A DNA stretch of 20,338 bases, from the IMG/VR virus record IMGVR_UViG_3300044996_000112, positions 1 through 20,338 of that record. One strand, 5' to 3'. How positions within the stretch are numbered: position 1 is the stretch's first letter; every line of letters begins with the position of its first letter. This DNA is from a virus. The notes below the pieces were generated by a model. The model was not told the DNA's origin. It did no database searches and saw only the letters and a program-made list of their open reading frames with translations. A program made the translations under genes and the position numbers. Below are positions 1,515-19,370 of the stretch, one piece after another.

Positions 1515-3335
1515 TCAGTCCTCCGGTCCGTAGATTCGCTCGGAGCCGCGCTTCTTCACGCGGAAGGTCATCTCCGAGATTGTGTAGGGCACAGAACTCG
1601 AGTCCGAGGTGAACTCGAACCTCATCGTCGACCCAGTCAGCCTGAAGTCTACATGTCCCTCGTCATCGCCCGCTGCGATGGTGAACGAGCCCAGGTTCCT
1701 CCAGACCCCACCCTTGTTGGTGGAGCCCCTGACGGTGAAGGTCAGGTCGGAGGTAGCCAGATCGTTGGTTTTCAGGGCAACCCTGTAGACCGTCTTCTTG
1801 TCATCGGGGAAGTCGAAGTCGAAATCCTTGGTGGTGAAGGACGCCGAGATGTTGCCGGTCGCGTCTGCCGACAGGGTGGACTCGTACCGATACACAAGGT
1901 CGGACACCCCAACGTAGAGCTTCTTGCCAGCACCCTGGCCACCGATGGCATCCCATGAAGCGAAGACACCCATGCCGGTATCCCAGGTCTGTACCGTCAG
2001 GCCCGCAGAGGTATTGAGGGTATCCCAGGTGTACTGGGTGTACAGCTCCGCCAGCCCGATCATGGAGCAGGACACCTGATCGTAGCTCCACGCCTTTGCG
2101 ATGTAGTCAAAGCTCCAGATCTTCTCGATCCCATCCGACAGGCCGGGGAACCCGAAGCACACCCGGTTGTTCGCCGGATCCGGCATGACGTAGGCTGCCC
2201 ACAAGTTGCTGCAGGTCTTGATGGTTTGCTTGACAACCGGAGTGCCGATGGGCTCGAGACCTGCGTTGGACAGGTAGTAGATGTTGTCGTCACCGATGAA
2301 AAAGTGCCCTCTCAGCCAGGGAGCTACCGCCTTCATCCCGACGAGTCCGATACCCCCAGACTCGATTCTTTCGGGCACCAGTGGAAGGGTGTCCCCTGCG
2401 TACTGAGAGGGCCTGAGTAGCCAGATCGCGTCGGTCATGTAGCAGATGAGAACTGAGCCCATCGAGACCAACCTTCGGATGTACCCAGCACTGTAGGGTA
2501 GATCCAAGAAGGTCGAACTCGACGTAGCTCGATCAGTGAAGTCGGTGTGGGTAAGCGTCCGAGACCACGTGATCCTGGTGCGGTAGTCGGTTCCTGCTGA
2601 GACGATCCTGCCACACCACACCCGGTCTTTGAAGAAGGTGATGCAGGTCGGAACGAACGTCACGCTGCCAGACCACGCTCCGAACGTCGTCCCGTCAAAG
2701 CTCCGGGGAGACTTGACGCTGTCCGTCATGACAACCTTGTTGTCCACGATTGTCCAGTCAACGAAGTACGGGTTGACCGCCTTGAGGCTCTTGTACACCT
2801 TGTAGTCTAGCTTGGTCGTGTAGGTGTTGGTGGGGGGCTCATCCAAGGAGATGAGCTTGTTGCTCAGGATGTTCGCGATGACCACCATCTCGTTCAGAGA
2901 GGTGTAGCTCAGATGCACTACGTCCTTCTGACTGAGCTTAGTGTTCCACCCCGGGTTGTTGGTAGCGATCAGGTACTGTCCGGACACCCTTAGGTGAGCC
3001 GACGTTGTGAACGTATCGTACTTGGGAGTAGTGCCCGAGTTCGTCGACAGGTACACGAATCGGGCATCGATGATCATGGTGACCTGCGTCCCGTCAGTCT
3101 TCCAGAAGGTGATGATGTCCCTGACGGGGGGGTAAAGTGTGGCAGAGGACGAGTAGATCCCGAGACCGGGACGCCTCGTTAGGCCCCCGGTCCCAACGAT
3201 GTAGTTCTTGGCGTCGAGAAGAGCCTCATCCGCAATCTGGTTAGAGGGCAGACTGAGGACAACCCCCTTGTTCAGGGGCCTCAGCGGTATCGAGACCGGA
3301 GTCCCAGGCGTGAAGAGGCTCTTGATGTCGCTCAC
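1515..3335 (-). CDS. Tail nozzle / DNA-stabilisation-like protein (P22 gp10 / T7 gp12 type)
   Basis: 606 residues, starting at a GTG that overlaps the upstream stop as GTGA. Features typical of phage nozzle or tubular proteins are visible: a GGLTRRPG segment at about residues 50-57, the pattern VVMTDSVKSPRSFDG at 201-215, and FFKDRVWCGR followed by RITWSRT and TDF at 234-266. In such proteins this resembles repeated beta-propeller blades reporting a position or value. The C-terminal part (about 480-600) reads as beta-sandwich with a basic end. Known relatives form the distal tube of short-tailed phages and help hold packaged DNA. The length fits that class. The general assignment is fairly sure; whether it is closer to gp10 or gp12 cannot be told here. 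Confidence 0.72.
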   Translation of the reverse strand: MSDIKSLFTPGTPVSIPLRPLNKGVVLSLPSNQIADEALLDAKNYIVGTGGLTRRPGLGIYSSSATLYPPVRDIITFWKTDGTQVTMIIDARFVYLSTNSGTTPKYDTFTTSAHLRVSGQYLIATNNPGWNTKLSQKDVVHLSYTSLNEMVVIANILSNKLISLDEPPTNTYTTKLDYKVYKSLKAVNPYFVDWTIVDNKVVMTDSVKSPRSFDGTTFGAWSGSVTFVPTCITFFKDRVWCGRIVSAGTDYRTRITWSRTLTHTDFTDRATSSSTFLDLPYSAGYIRRLVSMGSVLICYMTDAIWLLRPSQYAGDTLPLVPERIESGGIGLVGMKAVAPWLRGHFFIGDDNIYYLSNAGLEPIGTPVVKQTIKTCSNLWAAYVMPDPANNRVCFGFPGLSDGIEKIWSFDYIAKAWSYDQVSCSMIGLAELYTQYTWDTLNTSAGLTVQTWDTGMGVFASWDAIGGQGAGKKLYVGVSDLVYRYESTLSADATGNISASFTTKDFDFDFPDDKKTVYRVALKTNDLATSDLTFTVRGSTNKGGVWRNLGSFTIAAGDDEGHVDFRLTGSTMRFEFTSDSSSVPYTISEMTFRVKKRGSERIYGPED

Positions 3336-3598
3336 GTCTTAGCCGGAATGAAGATCTTCCCGAACTGGTAGAGGATGCTCGCCGCCCCGGCATGAGAGAT
3401 CCCTGAGGCGACCCAACCCTTCCAGGTCCAGGGGGAGATTACCACTGCCGAAGCCACGAACCCGAGGACCATGACGGCGACGATGTAGGACCACTTCGGC
3501 AGCTTGTCCTGGGCCACTGCCTTCACACCAAGCAGGATCCCGATGATCCCCGCCACCATGCCCACGTTGACACCAGGAAACAGGTTCAGCGCATCCAT
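3332..3598 (-). CDS. Small membrane protein, holin-like
   Basis: 88 residues from the ATG at 3598, chosen because AGGAG lies five bases upstream; a GTG at 3601 directly before it is too close to that site. Two hydrophobic segments are clear (about residues 9-28 and 36-55). A third weaker one (61-79) is followed by a short Lys-containing tail. Small size, two to three membrane spans and position directly after a peptidoglycan peptidase gene match phage holins, which open the inner membrane at lysis time. No specific holin family is recognised. The stop overlaps the start of the nozzle-like gene by four bases, so translation of the two is probably coupled. Confidence 0.7.
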   Translation of the reverse strand: MDALNLFPGVNVGMVAGIIGILLGVKAVAQDKLPKWSYIVAVMVLGFVASAVVISPWTWKGWVASGISHAGAASILYQFGKIFIPAKT

Positions 3599-3601
3599 CA
3601 C

Positions 3602-3645: not shown

Positions 3646-4221
3646 CTACAGGCCGAGGATATCCTCCATCCTGATCCTGTTCTCGTGCTTCGCCCATGTC
3701 GTCCCCGGATGCCCCTCGATGTGCAGGTGACTCTCGAAAGGTGTGGGCATTGTCTGACCAGCAAACCCCATGTACCCCACACAGTCACCCTGCTGCATCT
3801 TGCAGGGCTCAGTCCACATCGAGATGATGTATTCGTCGTTAGACTTCTTCGAGTAGAAGAACCTCGTCGGTCTCGCGGTGAAGAACGGCCCCATCAGATC
3901 CGGGTTCCCGTGCGCGTACAGGTACATCTCCCTGTGCCCCTCGCACACAAGAACGCAGCAGACCCCATAGAACTCCACCGAATAGTTCGCGAAGGGGTAC
4001 GAGGACCCATTCATCCACCTGATGTTGCCCCAGTTGTTGTAGATGTTCCGATCCTTCGACACCAGGAGGATCTGGTGCCACATCGCTTCCCCGTCCTTGA
4101 GAGCCCTCCACGGAGTCCCAACAGGTCCCATGATATCCAAGGCCCCGTGGACGTGCCCACCTCGAGCCTCATCGAACCTCGAGGTGACCAGTCCGTCATC
4201 CGCCGGGAAGACTGCCTTCAC
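3646..4221 (-). CDS. M23-family (LytM-like) metallopeptidase, probable endolysin
   Basis: 191 residues. The signature of zinc endopeptidases of family M23 is complete: HGALD (H25 and D29, the HxxxD motif), YAH with H104, and SHLHIEG with H165 and H167 (the HxH motif). A VGYMGFAGQT segment (148-157) matches the usual Gly-rich turn before the last motif. M23 enzymes cut peptide cross-links in peptidoglycan. An insertion of roughly 50 residues (about 45-95) separates the first two motifs. There is no signal peptide and no separate wall-binding domain, so export would need a holin or the enzyme could ride in the virion. The GTG start overlaps the upstream stop as GTGA. The flanking membrane-protein genes favour a lysis role. 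Confidence 0.9.
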   Translation of the reverse strand: MKAVFPADDGLVTSRFDEARGGHVHGALDIMGPVGTPWRALKDGEAMWHQILLVSKDRNIYNNWGNIRWMNGSSYPFANYSVEFYGVCCVLVCEGHREMYLYAHGNPDLMGPFFTARPTRFFYSKKSNDEYIISMWTEPCKMQQGDCVGYMGFAGQTMPTPFESHLHIEGHPGTTWAKHENRIRMEDILGL

Positions 4222-4630: not shown

Positions 4631-5452
4631 TCACACATTCGCCCCGCGCCCGGTCATCATCCATCCCGAGACGTAACCCATGTATATAGCTGGCGCCGCT
4701 CCGATGGTGTAGACTGCTATATCGAACTCGCCAAGGCTGTTCACCTGCACCCACGTCAAGCCCTCTGCGTGCATCCGGTACTGGTATCCATAGGTGTAGC
4801 CGGAATCATGCGGGCGCCAGTACGGGGTCGAGCAATCCACCAGTGAGTTGACCACGAGCAACCGCTTCGCTCCGATGGGGAAAGCTGTCCCCGGGGTGTA
4901 CGTCACGGTGTAGTAGGTCTGTGCCACGATACCGGACGTCTTTGACCAGTACCAACTCGCTCCGCCGTTAGGACCAAGCGTCATACATGGAGCGCCGATG
5001 ATAACCCACCCACTCCCGTCGCACAGCAGCGTCAGGTAGTCATTCTGATACCAGATGCCAACCGTCGTGTTCCCGTCGATCGTCTCGGCCCCGCTGCCGT
5101 CGACAGTAATCTTCCCAGCTCCGCTATCGACCTTGCGGATCGTGATGACCCGCCCCGTGTTCGAGGCTGCGGCGGGAAGGTTCACGGTGAAGGCGCTCGC
5201 ACCAGTTGTCACGAGCAAGTATTCGATCCCGTCCCTCGTCGTGATGGTCGTGGGAGACGTGGACGTCGAGGAGACAACAGCCCTTCTGCCCCCCGTATTG
5301 AGCATCCTCCATCCCGCAACAAGCTCAATCTCCCTGGGATCCGAGGTCTCAGAGTTGAAGTTGAACGCCTCGAACGGGAAGGCCCCAGGGTTGACCTCCT
5401 GAACATCAGTAGAACCGGGAAGAACAGGGGGCCGAAGAGGATACTCTTTCAC
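4631..5452 (-). CDS. Tail fibre / receptor-binding-like protein
   Basis: 273 residues from a GTG at 5452 that overlaps the stop of the upstream gene (GTGA). The frame stays open 28 codons further upstream, but that extension lies inside the neighbour. Residues about 76-153 match a module common in phage fibre and spike proteins: a beta-rich segment with TVNLPAAASNTGRVITIRK, then GAETIDGNTT, ending in a CDGSGWVIIG strand. The C-terminal part is Tyr/Trp/Gly-rich (about 160-270), as in receptor-binding domains. It is the last of three consecutive fibre-like genes and sits next to the lysis cassette. The fibre assignment is well supported; the receptor and any enzymatic activity are unknown. Confidence 0.78.
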   Translation of the reverse strand: MKEYPLRPPVLPGSTDVQEVNPGAFPFEAFNFNSETSDPREIELVAGWRMLNTGGRRAVVSSTSTSPTTITTRDGIEYLLVTTGASAFTVNLPAAASNTGRVITIRKVDSGAGKITVDGSGAETIDGNTTVGIWYQNDYLTLLCDGSGWVIIGAPCMTLGPNGGASWYWSKTSGIVAQTYYTVTYTPGTAFPIGAKRLLVVNSLVDCSTPYWRPHDSGYTYGYQYRMHAEGLTWVQVNSLGEFDIAVYTIGAAPAIYMGYVSGWMMTGRGANV

Positions 5453-6477
5453 TCTACGGCCTCCCAGAACCTGTTCATGAAGGCTTTCGTAGAGTACCCA
5501 CCTACAAATGCCATCTGGGCAGTGGCCCTCTTCCAACGAGTAAACACCTCACCAACAACAGCTGTACTGGTGGAACCGAAACTCTCGAGTTGAGTAGCTG
5601 CAGAGGTTGTGCAGACATACCTTCCCTGGCTGTTGACGAAGTAGAAATTGCTCCCACTTCTATAGAAGAAGACTCCGGAGGTGTAACTAGGAAGCACAAT
5701 TTCGGAAGCGGTGTTGATGTCGTGAGCTGTCGTATCATTTTGGACAAAAAGGAGACCCATCTGGCCACCAAATGGAGTGGAACTCCCACTACCTCTAGGA
5801 GTGGTATCAACTACGAATGAGGAAAGAAGGTCCGAGTAGCTGATTCTCGTAACCTGCGCGGACCTCTTGTGAAGGAAGTGGAGATTCCCTCCATAGGCAG
5901 CAAGAGGACCCTGCTGATAGGTACTGGTCAAGCTCCAGTCTGAGGTCGTGTAATTGGAAGCGGTACGGGGAGCCCAACTAGTCGTTCCAGTTGCTGGGGT
6001 ATACAGAAAGGTACTGGCCAAGTAGTTGGTGAGGCTCTTCCTAACCGTGAGCCCGCCTACTGCAACGGCGTCCAAGTCACTCCAGTCTATCGTGATGTAG
6101 GCATCGAGGTTCGTCGTGGAGTAGGTACTGTCGTAGGAACTGTCTGCGTTCGAAGACGTACCGAGAGAAGTCCATGTCCCCGACGAAACAGAGATGGCAT
6201 TCACCAAGAGGGTCAGAACGCCAGCGGCAGTCCTGCCACAAACGGCCAGGAAAACTCGATCTGAGTAGACACACCCTCTCGGGGTACTCACGCTAACGAA
6301 ACTGGCAGCAGAGATGTCCCAAGTCGTGATCGTCGTCCCAGTGTAGGAGGCAATGGTCACAGCAGTCGTCGTCGCCACCAAAGACACCGGCTTGTCCTCG
6401 ACGAAGATCCACGTCTTGCCGGATGGGAGCGTGACCAACTGCTTCCCCATACTGTAGATAGCCCCCATCGTAGCCAT
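5449..6477 (-). CDS. Ser/Thr-rich beta-structured virion protein, probable fibre component
   Basis: 342 residues. The ATG shares one base with the upstream stop (TGATG). The protein is rich in Ser, Thr, Tyr and Gly and poor in charged residues, with alternating hydrophobic/polar patterns throughout, as in beta-propeller or fibre proteins. Segments such as YSDRVFLAVCG (about residue 70) recall the repeated blade motif of nozzle-like proteins, but the match is weak. Base composition is clearly lower in GC than its neighbours (84 of 180 bases, 47 percent, at 5641-5820), which suggests a swapped or imported gene, as expected for host-range proteins. The exact role is not recognised. Confidence 0.72.
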   Translation of the reverse strand: MATMGAIYSMGKQLVTLPSGKTWIFVEDKPVSLVATTTAVTIASYTGTTITTWDISAASFVSVSTPRGCVYSDRVFLAVCGRTAAGVLTLLVNAISVSSGTWTSLGTSSNADSSYDSTYSTTNLDAYITIDWSDLDAVAVGGLTVRKSLTNYLASTFLYTPATGTTSWAPRTASNYTTSDWSLTSTYQQGPLAAYGGNLHFLHKRSAQVTRISYSDLLSSFVVDTTPRGSGSSTPFGGQMGLLFVQNDTTAHDINTASEIVLPSYTSGVFFYRSGSNFYFVNSQGRYVCTTSAATQLESFGSTSTAVVGEVFTRWKRATAQMAFVGGYSTKAFMNRFWEAVE

Positions 6478-12466: not shown

Positions 12467-13387
12467 TTACGCGCCCGCGTTCCCGTAGGCTCCCCTGTAG
12501 TCGAAGAAGGTCGCGGCGCACCGCATCGACACCTTGTACAGGATGTCGCCGGTCGCGAAGTCCTCAGTCTTCTTCATCTGCAGCTTGCGCCTCCACAGGT
12601 ACCGGAGGTCATGGTTCGCCGGATCGAGCAGGTGGTACGCCGTGGTGCTGGTCAGGTAGTGAGAGAGCATGTACTTGAACTTGCCCTTCACCGTGTTGAT
12701 CGCATTCTCGGCGGACTCCGGGTCCAGCTCGGAGAGCTGGAGTTCCCGAGCCTTCCACTCGAGACCGGGCGGGATGATGAGCAGCGAGGGCTGGCTCACG
12801 ATGGGAATGCTCTTCTCGTTCTTCATCGCGGCCGCAAGGTCGTACAGACCCTGGATCGTGGTCTTGGAGAGCGCACCCGCTGTGCCCAGGTTGTCGACCG
12901 TGGTGGTCCCCGAGAGGAGATCCGGATCGAGCAGGGTGTGCGCGTTGGCGTACAGGGCCGCACTGTCGATGCCGGTGTAGGTGGACCCGGAGAAGGCGTC
13001 GTTCAGGACATCCCAGAAGACCAGCTCCCTGGTGTAGGCAGCCGACTTGCCGAGATGCTCGAAGATCTTCTTCATGTGCCCGACCATGTCGTCTTCCTGC
13101 ATCTCCTCGGTGATCGCCACCGCGAGAGCCCAGACGGTGAAGTACACGGTCTTGCTGTTGCCCTGCTTGAAGGCCTCGTACTGGACGCCGCCGCCCTCGA
13201 ACTTCTCCTTCAGCCGCCCGAGGCCAGACATCTGGCCTTCCTTGATGTAGTTGCCCTCGACGTTCTCGATCTTTGCGACCTTCGACCACTCCTCGGGGAT
13301 CGCCGCGTAGGAGTCGAAGAAGACCTTGCGAAAGTTCTTGTCGTAGAGCTGCGAAAAACTCGTCGTGTTCATGATGCCGCCAGCCAT
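12467..13387 (-). CDS. Major capsid protein (HK97-fold, Mu gpT-like)
   Basis: 306 residues with GGAGGAGG upstream of the ATG at 13387; a second ATG at codon 6 is possible. The sequence follows the order seen in HK97-fold coat proteins of the Mu-type head family: a short N-arm (SQLYDKNFRKVFFDSY), AVAITEEMQEDDM at about 89-101 and LNDAFSG near 128-134. Then come an ALYANAHTLLDPDLLSG loop (144-160), LIIPPGLEWKARELQ (203-217) and, near the end, a YLWRRK/FATGDILYKV segment. Capsid subunits assemble on the scaffold around the portal. The length is normal for the group. Flanking scaffold- and decoration-like genes confirm the assignment. Confidence 0.92.
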   Translation of the reverse strand: MAGGIMNTTSFSQLYDKNFRKVFFDSYAAIPEEWSKVAKIENVEGNYIKEGQMSGLGRLKEKFEGGGVQYEAFKQGNSKTVYFTVWALAVAITEEMQEDDMVGHMKKIFEHLGKSAAYTRELVFWDVLNDAFSGSTYTGIDSAALYANAHTLLDPDLLSGTTTVDNLGTAGALSKTTIQGLYDLAAAMKNEKSIPIVSQPSLLIIPPGLEWKARELQLSELDPESAENAINTVKGKFKYMLSHYLTSTTAYHLLDPANHDLRYLWRRKLQMKKTEDFATGDILYKVSMRCAATFFDYRGAYGNAGA

Positions 13388-14602: not shown

Positions 14603-15394
14603 TCACCTTCCTCTCTTGCTCATCATGTAGTCTTCGATGCTCAGACCCTTCCGGTCTGCCGCATCCAGGTCGCGCTGCGTGTACCGTACCACCCGTCTCC
14701 TGGTGCCCTGCCCCGGTTGGGACGCGGAGCCCTCAGCGTAGGATACCTGGGGACGGCCGGAAACCTTGGCAGGGTCGATGCCGTACTCGCGGAGCTTGCG
14801 CTCGACGATCTGCTCGGCAATCTTCTCGGCCCTCTCGGACTGGATCTCGTCCTGGTGCTTGAGGGTGACCTGCGTGTGGGCGTACTCCCAGACCTGCGGC
14901 AGGGCCTGCTGGGCGGCGGGGAGGGCACCGACGAACTCCTCGATCTCCTTCTTGTACTTCTTGAAGGTGGGAGCCTTGTCGGGATCCAACTCGATGACCT
15001 TCTTGGCGATGGTCGCCGCCCCATGGGAGGCCTGCCCGATGATGGGGGCAAGTTCCCGCTTGGCGATCTCAGCGATGAGAGCGTAGGGGTCTGCGGACGC
15101 GAAGATGCTATCGTTGATCCTCTTGCGGAAGTCTTCTTGGGACTCGCCGGGCTGGCGGTCGGGCACTGCAGGTGCAGCCTGCTGCTTGCCCGCCATCTGC
15201 TGGATCGCCTGGGCAAGCTGCGAGGAGTTGTCTGCTCGCTGCTTGAGTTCATCGAGTTCAGCCCTGGTGACCGTAGGGGTCTCGGCAGCAGCTTCGACCT
15301 GCTCCTCCCCCTCCTCGGCCATCTCGTAGTCGACCGGCTCGTCCTTGTCATCGGGCTCCTCCAGGAGGATGTCCGGTGCCTTGCTCTTAGCCAT
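14603..15394 (-). CDS. Scaffold-like head assembly protein
   Basis: 263 residues. The ATG lies within the end of the upstream gene (eight-base overlap, ATGGCTAA). The composition is that of scaffolding proteins: a strongly acidic N-terminus (residues about 11-40, EEPDDKDEP, EMAEEGEEQVE), long charged helices with probable coiled coil (45-70 and 130-205), no Cys, and a basic C-terminus (RRRVVRYTQRDLDA, ending SIEDYMMSKRGR). In known phages such proteins guide coat assembly and leave the head before or during packaging, and the basic C-terminus binds the coat. Position between portal and coat genes supports the call. No internal protease is seen. Confidence 0.75.
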   Translation of the reverse strand: MAKSKAPDILLEEPDDKDEPVDYEMAEEGEEQVEAAAETPTVTRAELDELKQRADNSSQLAQAIQQMAGKQQAAPAVPDRQPGESQEDFRKRINDSIFASADPYALIAEIAKRELAPIIGQASHGAATIAKKVIELDPDKAPTFKKYKKEIEEFVGALPAAQQALPQVWEYAHTQVTLKHQDEIQSERAEKIAEQIVERKLREYGIDPAKVSGRPQVSYAEGSASQPGQGTRRRVVRYTQRDLDAADRKGLSIEDYMMSKRGR

Positions 15395-15674
15395 TCTTGG
15401 CCTCCTTCAGTTCTTGTCGGGCCTCCTCGAGGGTCTCGTAGATGAAACGCTCGAGACAGGCGAGGACCTCACGGTAGAACCGGATCCCTCCTTGGTGGAG
15501 CCGGATCTTGTTGGGGTCATCCTCCGATTCCAGGCGCTTGGCCCATTGGGTTCCCAGGAAGTCCAGGACCAGCTCCTTGAACGTTTCCCATCCCGGGCTG
15601 TCCGATAGCTCCTTGAGGGACTCCAGGTCCTGCACCCATCGCTCCAGGTCCTGCTCCGAGTAGCCGTCTGCCAT
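15387..15674 (-). CDS. Small helical protein overlapping the portal C-terminus
   Basis: 95 residues from the ATG at 15674, read in a different frame from the portal. AGGAGG (15680-15685) lies five bases upstream, inside the portal gene, and strongly supports this start. The protein is a plain soluble helical sequence (DLERWVQDLESLKELSDSPGW; KELVLDFLGTQWAKRL; GGIRFYREVLACLERF; a Glu/Lys tail), with normal amino-acid variety, unlike the portal tail it overlaps. Its first 52 codons share DNA with portal residues 636-687. It ends eight bases into the scaffold gene. Its role is unknown; a small head assembly protein is plausible from position. Confidence 0.82.
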   Translation of the reverse strand: MADGYSEQDLERWVQDLESLKELSDSPGWETFKELVLDFLGTQWAKRLESEDDPNKIRLHQGGIRFYREVLACLERFIYETLEEARQELKEAKNG

Positions 15675-17580
15675 TCAAGCCTCCTATGCTTTGTATTTGT
15701 TCGAGCATCTGATTTCTGAAGTCGACCAGCTGCTCGAGCTTTTCGTAGTTGGGCATGTACTCCTTGGTGTCGGGCTCCCCACCGAACTCGAGGATCTTCG
15801 ACATGATCTTCGAGAGGCCCGCGTACACCTTGACGTTGTGATCGAACAGGTCCTGGAGCTGCGGCATCTTGGGGAGCTGCATGGCGATCTGCGTGATGGT
15901 CTGCATGAGCTGCCCAGAGAGCCCGATGTACATGTTGTAGGTCTGGATGAGCATCAGGTACCGCTGGCGCTCCATCTCGTAGGTCTCATCGACGTCGGTG
16001 GTGTTGACGGTGAAGGCCATCTTCAGCGGGATGTCCTCAACGGGCATGTCGAGGCAGTCGGGCAGGAGGAGAAGTTCCTTCTCGGAGAGTCTCCGGATGC
16101 TCCGCTCGTGGGTCAGGACGGCCTCACGGTTCCTGCAGAGTTCCATCCAGACCAGCATCCCGACCTCGGCGAAGGAGTCCTCGAGGCCCTCGGCCACGGC
16201 CTGGAAGACACCGGAGGATTGGCGGAGGCGGAGGACCTGGGATTGTGCGGAGTCACGGCTCTTGAGGGTGGAGTCGGCGAAACCACCCTGGATCTCTGGC
16301 ATCCCGACGTTGCGCATGGCCATCTGGAAGTCGAGCTGCTCCGCCTGCAGGGAGGAGGGGTAGACCTCTCCAGACTGGACGGGGACCAAGTCCTCCTTAG
16401 GGTTGTCGAGCATCCAGATCTTGCCGGGCCTGACCTCCTCGCGCTGCTTACCGCCAGAGTGGCGGCGCATCGCAAACATCTTGACGGCCGCGAGGTGGGT
16501 ACCGTCGATCCGGGCGTTGTGGAGGGTGTCTGCTTCCATCTGCATGTGGTAGGTCATCTGGCAGACGCCACGGCCCTCGATGGTGCCGGGCTGGTGCATG
16601 TAGATGAAGGGGACGATGGGTCTCCAACCGAGTTCGTTGTACTCCTCGCGGAGGAAGGTTCCCGAGTTGAGTTCCAGGGTGATCTTCACGTCGGCGTAGA
16701 CGCCGTCATCCTCGACGTCCCAGTAGACGTAGTACTCGTGGATGTCCCAGACGCGGTTCTCGAGGATCTGGCCGCCTGCGAGGGCGGCGTTCTCCTCCTC
16801 GAACTTGAGGGGGTTGGTTCTGGCCCACTCTTCGAGGGCCTCGGAGGTGCCGGGGTTGTAGATGCCCATGCGCTCACGCTGCGTGATGACGTGCCAGGGG
16901 ACGTGCGAGGTGTGCCGGATCCAGGGCATGACCTGGATTTCGTCCCAGCCCTCACGGTAGAGGCAGTCCTCGTACTGGATGGAGAGGAGGGAGGGGCCGT
17001 CGTGCTGGAAACGCTCGATGATCTCGGTCAGACCAGAGGCGTTGCGCCTCTTGAAGATCCGAGGGCGGCGCTCCCAGAGGACTTTGACGAAGGCGGTACC
17101 CAGAGAACCGGCGTCGTAGAGCAGGTACTTGTTCTTCTTCTTCAGGTCGAGGTCGTTTCGGGACTCAGCGAGCAGGTTGAGGTACTTCTCGCGCAGTGCA
17201 GCCTTCTGTTCCTCGATGTCGTCCTCCTGGTTGATCGGTTTGACGCGCCAGAAGGGCTTGAGGGAGAAGGTTGTCTTGAGGGCACCGAAGAGAGTCTTCG
17301 CATTGATGTCGGTGAGGGGCGTACAGACGTTGGAAGCGTCCTTCCAGGGGTAGTTTTTGGTCTTCTGCTTGGGAATCCCGACGCGAGTGCGCCGGTATTC
17401 GGCCACGTTCTCGAGTTTTTCGGAACGTTCGGCCTCGGCGAGCTTCGTTTCCTGCTCGACGTAGTCCAGGAAGGCTTTTCGGGCCTCCTCGTTGGGGAAA
17501 ATGCTGTGCACGGGGGTCTCGTCGGGTGTGATGGGGTTGTCATCCTCGAGAACCACGCTTCCAACGACCTTGTCAGACAT
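15517..17580 (-). CDS. Portal protein
   Basis: 687 residues, with GAGAGG six bases before the ATG. The family is shown by NYPWKDASNVCTPLTDINAK at about 76-95, a long helical and beta core with the charge pattern of P22-like portals, IVPFIYMHQPGTIEGRGVCQ in the middle, and long C-terminal helices (about 540-630). A dodecameric portal sits at one head vertex; terminase docks on it for packaging and the adaptor attaches to it later. Residues 636-687 form a Gly/Pro/Ala/Gln/Met-rich tail (GAGPGAMGAGPGVPQGA and further repeats) that shares DNA with the next gene. The tail is probably disordered. Confidence 0.93.
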   Translation of the reverse strand: MSDKVVGSVVLEDDNPITPDETPVHSIFPNEEARKAFLDYVEQETKLAEAERSEKLENVAEYRRTRVGIPKQKTKNYPWKDASNVCTPLTDINAKTLFGALKTTFSLKPFWRVKPINQEDDIEEQKAALREKYLNLLAESRNDLDLKKKNKYLLYDAGSLGTAFVKVLWERRPRIFKRRNASGLTEIIERFQHDGPSLLSIQYEDCLYREGWDEIQVMPWIRHTSHVPWHVITQRERMGIYNPGTSEALEEWARTNPLKFEEENAALAGGQILENRVWDIHEYYVYWDVEDDGVYADVKITLELNSGTFLREEYNELGWRPIVPFIYMHQPGTIEGRGVCQMTYHMQMEADTLHNARIDGTHLAAVKMFAMRRHSGGKQREEVRPGKIWMLDNPKEDLVPVQSGEVYPSSLQAEQLDFQMAMRNVGMPEIQGGFADSTLKSRDSAQSQVLRLRQSSGVFQAVAEGLEDSFAEVGMLVWMELCRNREAVLTHERSIRRLSEKELLLLPDCLDMPVEDIPLKMAFTVNTTDVDETYEMERQRYLMLIQTYNMYIGLSGQLMQTITQIAMQLPKMPQLQDLFDHNVKVYAGLSKIMSKILEFGGEPDTKEYMPNYEKLEQLVDFRNQMLEQIQSIGGLNGRRLLGAGPGAMGAGPGVPQGAIGQPGMGNVQGAGPGLPGNPMGQAPGIGG
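15680..15685 (-). promoter_or_regulatory. Shine-Dalgarno site inside the portal gene
   Basis: A perfect AGGAGG in portal codons for I-G-G, five bases before the out-of-frame ATG at 15674. It decides the start of the overlapping 95-residue gene. Confidence 0.85.
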
Positions 17581-17594
17581 GAAAAACCTCTCTT

Positions 17595-19370
17595 TCAGTA
17601 GCCTGTGATGGGGTTACGACCCACTGCAAGGGCAAACTCTTCGTCCTGTTCTTCCTGTTCACGGGTTTCCTCAGTGGAAAGGGGTCTGGAGAGACGCTGG
17701 ATGGCCATGGAGGACATGTCCAGGACGTCTTTTCGGTACCTGTTGGAGGGGAAGATCTTCTGTTCGTCGATGAAGTCACCGTAGCGGCAGTTCTTGTTGA
17801 GCCAGATGCAGCCTTGGGCGAGAGGGTTGCCGATCAGGGTTCGGATCCTGACGTCCTTGTCACCGATGGCGGGGCATCCCTGGATGTTCAGGTGGATGGA
17901 TCGCTGATGACGCTCACGTTCGAGGATGCTGCGGAGGACCCGCTGGAAGGAAACTTCCTCGAAACCGACCTCCTTGTAGTACCCGTCGTACTTCTTGGAC
18001 ATGGCGAAGATCTCGTCACAGACTCCGTAGATGTCCCACTGACCGACGCGGAGGTCGATGAGGTAGTAGTTACCGTCTGCGTCCATCGCCCAGAACCCGA
18101 TTGCGGTGCGGCAGGCCTTGGAGAGGAGGCCTTTCTCGGTTGCGGCAGGGTCGATGTAGATGCCAGCGTCACAGGAGTCGAGGAAGAAGGTCTTGGGACC
18201 GATGGGTTCTTCGCCGGGAGCGAGGATTCTGGAGATGACCCATCGCTGCTGGTCGTCCTGGTAGACTCGGCAGAAGCGGGGGGTGTAGGAGCCGAGTTCG
18301 TTGAGGCCGGTATCCTCGATGTTGTTGGCTCCCTGGGTGGCGTAGGACCAGAAGTCCTTCTCACGCCAGTCATCGAGGAACTCCTTGTTGGTGGCTTCGG
18401 GCTGGATGATGATGCCATCCTCGATGATGGAGCGGTAGTAGATGACCCAGTGGCCGTTGGGCAGCTCCTTGATGGTGTTGTCGATGTAGCCGAGGACCTT
18501 CTTGCAGTCGTCGGTGACGATCTGGGAGGGGTCGTTGGGTCCGAAGCGAGTGGCGGCATAGATGATCTGGGAGGTGTTCTGGTCGTACAGGAGGGCTCTC
18601 GTATTGGTCTGGAACCACTGCATCTTGGAGACCATGGAGACGGAGCCCTGGCGCTCGATGTTGAGGTCGTCCATGCCCGCAAGGTCGTCGATCAACTCCT
18701 TGGTGTAGTGGCCGCCCTCGGAGGCTCCGGTTGCGGCACGGGCTGTGACGGAGGGCTCGGCCCAGCGGCGGGTCCGGTTGGGCATCTCGAAGGCGTCCTC
18801 GTTCCACTTGTGGCGACGACGGGCGTGCTTGGGCAGGTCCAGGTTGGGGCACCACTCGGGGTAGGTCATCTTCATGAGGGGGTTGGAGTCGTAGTTGCGC
18901 TGGATCTGGGTCTTGAAGCCCTCGGAGCGGTTCAGGATTCCGGAGGCGATGAGGAGACGCTCGTCGGGGTCACGGAGGAGGTCCCAGGTGCCGCCGCCGT
19001 GGGTCATGATGGTCGACTTGCGGTGGTTGCGGGGGAGGATGGCGGCTCCACGGGCACCGGGGCCGAGGCAGTGGTCGGACTGACGGAAGTTGCAGATCTC
19101 CAGGTGGAGGGTGGAGTTGAGCTTGTCGTAGGGGCCGTAGGCACCACAGATGACCTTGAGGAAGAACCAGAGGTTGACGAGGCCAGCTTGGCGGATGAGA
19201 GAGTGGACCTTGCCGTTGATCTGGGGGTTGGCGGAGCGGAGTTCGCGGAGCAGGTGGACCAGGATGAGCTGGATGTCGGAGGCCTTGGTGATGGAGGGGG
19301 CGAGGGGGTGAGGCCGGATGGCGAACTTGTTTACCGAGCGCGTCTGTGCTTCCATCCCTTGCCGGTCCAC
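17595..19370 (-). CDS. terL: Terminase large subunit (ATPase/nuclease)
   Basis: 591 residues. The motor that cuts concatemeric DNA and pumps it through the portal using ATP. The ATPase half has a Walker A-like PRNHRKST at 113-120, and ELIDDL at 225-230 fits Walker B. The nuclease half shows FFLDSCDAGIYIDPAA (acidic residues D398, D401, D407) with a following beta hairpin (FWAMDADGNYYLIDL), then GFEEV near 469-473 and D548/D551 near the end, in the RNase H-like order expected of terminases. The GTG at 19370 is chosen because GAGG lies five bases upstream; an ATG five codons in (19355) lacks proper spacing. It follows the small-terminase candidate by six bases. Confidence 0.93.
   Translation of the reverse strand: MDRQGMEAQTRSVNKFAIRPHPLAPSITKASDIQLILVHLLRELRSANPQINGKVHSLIRQAGLVNLWFFLKVICGAYGPYDKLNSTLHLEICNFRQSDHCLGPGARGAAILPRNHRKSTIMTHGGGTWDLLRDPDERLLIASGILNRSEGFKTQIQRNYDSNPLMKMTYPEWCPNLDLPKHARRRHKWNEDAFEMPNRTRRWAEPSVTARAATGASEGGHYTKELIDDLAGMDDLNIERQGSVSMVSKMQWFQTNTRALLYDQNTSQIIYAATRFGPNDPSQIVTDDCKKVLGYIDNTIKELPNGHWVIYYRSIIEDGIIIQPEATNKEFLDDWREKDFWSYATQGANNIEDTGLNELGSYTPRFCRVYQDDQQRWVISRILAPGEEPIGPKTFFLDSCDAGIYIDPAATEKGLLSKACRTAIGFWAMDADGNYYLIDLRVGQWDIYGVCDEIFAMSKKYDGYYKEVGFEEVSFQRVLRSILERERHQRSIHLNIQGCPAIGDKDVRIRTLIGNPLAQGCIWLNKNCRYGDFIDEQKIFPSNRYRKDVLDMSSMAIQRLSRPLSTEETREQEEQDEEFALAVGRNPITGY

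Follow-up and report, generated by a model that had tools for sequence, protein, structure and literature searches.

A long +1 overlap between a portal gene and a small helical-protein gene, probably old and constrained in both frames, in a group of tailed viruses

How do the end of a portal gene and the first half of a second, out-of-frame gene come to occupy the same viral DNA, and is such an arrangement a local accident or a maintained one? The question is raised by a 20,338-base record of an uncultivated virus (hereafter the window, meaning the whole stretch analysed), in which the genes discussed lie on the minus strand and are laid out as follows.

17595..19370, minus strand: terminase large subunit gene, upstream of the portal (phrog_38, E 2.5e-37).
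15517..17580, minus strand: portal protein gene, 687 aa (coding 15520..17580, stop TGA 15519..15517; PF23899, phrog_332/phrog_1216, and AF2 model compared with the N4 portal).
15680..15685, minus strand: AGGAGG Shine-Dalgarno sequence within the portal coding sequence, 5 nt ahead of the small-gene ATG (enriched across loci).
15520..15675, minus strand: dual-coded portal tail, about residues 636-687, predicted to be disordered and rich in Gly, Pro, Ala, Gln and Met (AF2 pLDDT, and composition beyond a codon-shuffle null).
15517..15674, minus strand: out-of-frame overlap of 158 nt, with helices 1-2 of the small protein inside (ORF coordinates and AF2 helices).
15387..15674, minus strand: small helical protein gene, 95 aa, three predicted helices (AF2; homologues with and without overlap in related loci).
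14603..15394, minus strand: next gene, acidic/Gln-rich scaffold-like protein, 263 aa (ORF and position only).
12467..13387, minus strand: major head protein gene, farther along.

A preliminary description of this DNA had reported a 158-base overlap of the portal and the small gene with an AGGAGG inside the portal, and both were confirmed from the coordinates (AGGAGG at 15685..15680), the small ORF lying in the +1 frame relative to the portal with 158 nt common to both. Across this stretch the portal frame reads ...GLNGRRLLGAGPGAMGAGPGVPQGAIGQPGMGNVQGAGPGLPGNPMGQAPGIGG. In the frame of the small ORF, a TGA (15677..15675) immediately precedes the ATG at 15674 and this, together with the AGGAGG at 5 nt, points to a small gene that would be initiated independently. 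Other overlaps in the window, where examined, are of 1-8 nt (8 nt between the small and the scaffold-like genes), which agrees with the 1-11 bases given previously; the one exception, an apparent 88-nt overlap (5449..5536) between the minus-strand ORFs 4631..5536 and 5449..6477, would be only 4 nt long with the GTG at 5452 as start codon.

The portal protein matched PF23899 (SU10_portal; E 5.6e-13, 48.6 bits against a cutoff of 30) and, in Foldseek comparisons of its AF2 model, the portals of N4 (E 5.7e-22) and SU10 (E 3.9e-17), with a global TM of about 0.5, as well as other podovirus portals. No family match was found for the 263-aa scaffold-like protein. Elsewhere in the window, this podovirus-type portal is accompanied by a possible baseplate gene (4631..5536, minus strand; phrog_20556, E 1.2e-6) and by a gene with a virion structural match (1515..3335, minus strand; phrog_3287, E 2.6e-28). 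Two possible lysis genes were also noticed, an ORF that by eye resembles an M23-type peptidase (3646..4221, minus strand; GHVHGALDI...HLHIE motifs) and a hydrophobic holin-like ORF (3332..3601).

A single-protein search recovered two near-identical contigs and Caudoviricetes sp. vir526 (BK063670; host Methanomicrobiales), with portals 29-30% identical to that of the window (30% for vir526). In each, a small ORF runs over the portal end in the +1 frame, by 149 nt in the two contigs and by 209 nt in vir526 (an 88-aa ORF, 5579..5845 of locus L004), as it does in the window. The vir526 record leaves this small gene, situated between portal and scaffold, unannotated, probably on account of the 209-nt overlap with the portal. 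Among named phages, relatives were limited to vir526 and, as weak matches, two Manatee Spring genomes; none was found in scans of bacterial and archaeal genomes, and a scan of viral contigs for the small-gene pattern gave no matches because the family is too divergent.

Profile searches extended the collection to about 175 loci; once duplicates had been removed, the small gene could be identified in 110 loci belonging to two deep portal clades, with portals about 20-37% identical to that of the window. An overlap of at least 90 nt was present in 94 of the 110 distinct loci, always in the +1 frame (94/94), with counts that are affected by the heuristic by which the start codon was picked in many loci. 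A measure of open frame that does not depend on the start gave the same picture, in that the +1 frame stays open before and after the portal stop in nearly all loci and the +2 frame is usually closed. Overlap lengths in the relatives range from about 90 to 250 nt. Moreover, a Shine-Dalgarno match of at least 5 nt preceded an ATG of the +1 frame in 44 of 88 loci, as compared to a per-ATG frequency of 1.3% in that frame within portal cores, the former figure being somewhat inflated since it allows several ATGs per locus. The recurrence of the overlap in 94 of 110 loci and in one frame is more than chance. Portals ending before the small gene, which the preliminary description had named as the contrary outcome, occur in only four members of the window's clade, scattered within it, and three of these carry a tail upstream of the small gene. 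As a side observation, MW202601 contains an unannotated 92-aa ORF after the portal (5078..5356 of locus L180; 1-nt overlap), with a weak match to the small-family profile (E 4e-4, in a small test set).

Substitutions were analysed in 17 pairs of relatives, and an earlier, partly overlapping set of pairs agrees with the results, which are as follows: (i) the rate of change at third positions of the small gene is 0.27 inside the overlap as opposed to 0.44 outside, (ii) of the changes silent in the small gene, only 30 of 201 yield R, C, W, H, K or a stop in the portal (31.6% expected; P = 7.7e-8), (iii) among changes silent in one frame only, those silent in the small gene are in excess over those silent in the portal (201/350; 47.5% expected; P = 2.2e-4), and (iv) 56 of 149 changes in the small protein are conservative (28.8% expected; P = 0.023), a weak result as a test of the small frame taken alone. 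Both frames thus appear to be under purifying selection. For the small-gene frame, where the preliminary description had proposed to look for it, the signal comes chiefly from the excess of silent changes and less from the conservative ones.

The portal tail encoded over the overlap was found to be, as claimed at the outset, a Gly/Pro/Ala/Gln/Met-rich segment that is predicted to be disordered, and in the overlapping loci as a whole such tails are poor in Arg, Cys, Trp and His, the last three being almost absent. This composition could in principle arise by plain loss of a stop codon, whereby the portal frame was extended into the small gene and helix codons read in that frame gave a tail as a neutral by-product. 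Helix-coding DNA does lean somewhat in this direction: non-overlapping small genes contain 25.5% Gly/Pro/Ala in the portal-equivalent frame versus 14% in the other frame; Arg makes up 13% in the former, where stops occur at 2.2 per 50 codons. However, when synonymous codons were re-drawn for each overlapped small protein (the codon-shuffle null), the observed tails lay far past this expectation, with Gly/Pro/Ala at 56% against 37% (higher in 78 of 78 loci), Arg at 2.7% against 9.7%, and 0 stops against 2.4. Gly/Pro/Ala richness as a mere default of the frame is ruled out by this null, and the overlapped DNA seems therefore to have been shaped for the tail too. Furthermore, tails of the same kind, Gly/Pro/Ala/Gln-rich and almost Arg-free, are borne by portals without overlap, both in the window's clade (L012, L026 and L028) and in the outgroup (45% Gly/Pro/Ala and 17% Gln over the last 45 residues of non-overlapping tails), and changes silent in the small gene are, as described above, filtered in the portal frame. 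Judged by the codon-shuffle and substitution tests, simple stop-codon loss appears largely refuted, and we hold it to be improbable. In L028, where the overlap is absent, the portal tail (end 5962) consists of collagen-like GPQ repeats (GPQGPQGPNGPQGPQ), as if it had been rebuilt through repeat expansion.

Which of the two partners came first at the shared DNA was approached through loci in which they do not overlap. Behind most outgroup portals (L081-L101; 20-25% identical) comes a small ORF, about 80-125 codons long, whose start coincides with the portal stop or closely follows it, and within the window's clade four members (L012, L014, L026 and L028) have a small gene with an overlap of only 0-17 nt. 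In hhalign comparisons, the overlapped small genes matched the non-overlapping members of the same clade with 97.6% probability and one outgroup set (L081, L083, L089, L095 and L097) with 94.3%, in both cases over nearly the full length, and a second outgroup set only weakly (53.6%); the small proteins also matched those of the second clade over nearly their full length (95.7%). A [S/x]P-x-[W/Y/F] turn is common to the overlapped half (helices 1-2) and to the same half of the non-overlapping relatives. The overlapped half being homologous to non-overlapping small genes, the overlapped DNA therefore descends from a small gene, which on these comparisons is the older partner there. In a tree of portal cores, built by a quick method and with an assumed root, the overlapping loci fall in two supported clades, and L012, L014, L026 and L028 are scattered within one of them, so placed that they are best read as separate losses of the overlap. 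As far as the sequences indicate, the overlap is a conserved feature of two deep clades and not a local accident. The preliminary description had proposed overprinting, and one part of that proposal stands, namely that the portal stop lies inside a genuine and older small gene with non-overlapping homologues; its other part, a disordered tail created as a by-product, does not, as portals without overlap share the tail and its composition is selected.

The opposite history, in which the start of the small gene shifted upstream into a pre-existing portal tail, draws on the same tails without overlap (L012, L026, L028 and the outgroup), by which the tail as a feature could match the small gene in age; yet the overlapped half of the small protein, helices 1-2, is homologous to the same half in the non-overlapping relatives, which traces this DNA to the small gene and not to the tail, and we rate this history as unlikely as stop-codon loss. 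Less probable still is programmed ribosomal frameshifting into the +1 frame, with a portal-small fusion as its product. A frame relation that stays constant along such a lengthy open stretch does resemble a frameshift cassette, but the downstream frame of the window has a start of its own (AGGAGG-N5-ATG) with an in-frame TGA directly before it, Shine-Dalgarno matches are enriched in the relatives, and separate, non-overlapping homologues of the small gene exist. Finally, an artefact (an error in the portal frame or a spurious small ORF), to which the missing annotation in vir526 might lend some colour, is in practice refuted by recurrence of the arrangement across independent assemblies, by selection in both frames and by homologues outside overlaps, and its probability appears negligible.

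We thus favour, with considerable confidence, a pair of overlapping genes long maintained in the head module of a tailed-virus group, in which one stretch would encode an ordered and a disordered segment, both constrained. On the sequence comparisons, an ancestral small helical gene lying directly downstream of the portal has been overrun by the C-terminal frame of the portal, in the fixed +1 frame and over about 90-250 nt. The conflict would be bearable in that the two products make different demands, the tail on composition only and the small protein on sequence. Ribosomes translating the portal would read through the tail, and translation of the small protein would be initiated by separate ribosomes from the internal Shine-Dalgarno sequence; the overlap probably saves about 150 nt and may keep two late products together.

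Structure predictions are in keeping with such a division. The small protein, previously described as helical, gave a confident three-helix AF2 model (mean pLDDT 93.3; helices 7-25, 27-50 and 54-94), and the overlap covers its residues 1-52, so that in the window the portal stop lies within the turn linking helices 2 and 3, a place that is not fixed among relatives. The overlapped portal tail (residues 633-687) has pLDDT below 50. The portal is accordingly predicted to be disordered exactly across the overlap, where the small protein is predicted to be folded. Some SU10/N4-type portals, though not all, have a C-terminal helical barrel. That of the N4-like phage DEV is formed by portal residues 620-721 (PMC10925440); by monomer prediction such a barrel is absent from the window portal, in which the disordered tail may take its place and would probably reach from the crown of the portal into the interior of the head. 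A bolder reading, which we put forward only tentatively, goes beyond mere compression and sees in the shared stretch a functional module that has been maintained: a disordered tail of selected composition replacing the portal barrel and a partner in portal/scaffold assembly would have co-evolved and be co-produced from one DNA stretch, kept since the common ancestor of the two deep clades.

The small protein had no match to a named family in PHROGs or Pfam and none to sequences of solved structures, where only scattered, non-significant matches were seen, and comparison of its fold with fold libraries gave no significant match; its divergence appears too great for any named family. In BFVD, its fold paired non-significantly (E about 0.5) with proteins of the N4-like phages Presley (102 aa) and pVco-5 (116 aa), which equal the portal-adjacent genes in length (pVco-7 being used for pVco-5). 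The head module of Escherichia phage SU10 (gp6 portal, gp7 of 78 aa and unnamed, gp8 scaffold, gp9 MCP) is ordered as in the window, and Escherichia phage N4 (gp59 portal, gp58 of 115 aa, gp57, gp56 MCP) has a small gene in the same place; unlike in the window, portal and small gene do not overlap in either phage, being separated by 9 nt in SU10 and 2 nt in N4. Homology of the small family to N4 gp58 and SU10 gp7 was not detected (hmmsearch E 0.12 and 0.32) and, with hhalign probability below 1%, was rejected. By position, the small protein occupies the unnamed portal-scaffold slot of SU10 gp7 and N4 gp58, and its place between the portal and scaffold genes suggests that it probably helps portal/scaffold assembly.

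Overall, the gene pair appears real, old and mostly unannotated. It offers a natural, many-times-sampled case of a folded and a disordered protein sharing codons, in which the rules of dual coding (frame, residues, allowed changes) can be measured rather than modelled. In addition, it brings to light a small gene of the head module that was left unannotated in vir526, the only named relative examined, and draws attention to an uncharacterised small-protein position separating portal from scaffold in phages like SU10 and N4. No description of a portal-tail overlap was found in the literature searched, most subscription journals lying outside its scope. Long same-strand overlapping genes of dsDNA viruses have been surveyed (PMC7017920, PMC8903798); +1 is the commonest overlap frame aside from overlaps of 1 and 4 nt, and typical +1 overlaps are short, with a median of 14 nt (PMC8903798). 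Like those surveyed, the present overlap joins neighbouring genes out of frame, in +1; in contrast to them, overlaps of the window type span about 90-250 nt, are conserved across portals only about 20-37% identical, and are split into an ordered and a disordered product. The pair is of a known kind, and is unusual in its length for a dsDNA virus, its depth, and its clean ordered/disordered division.
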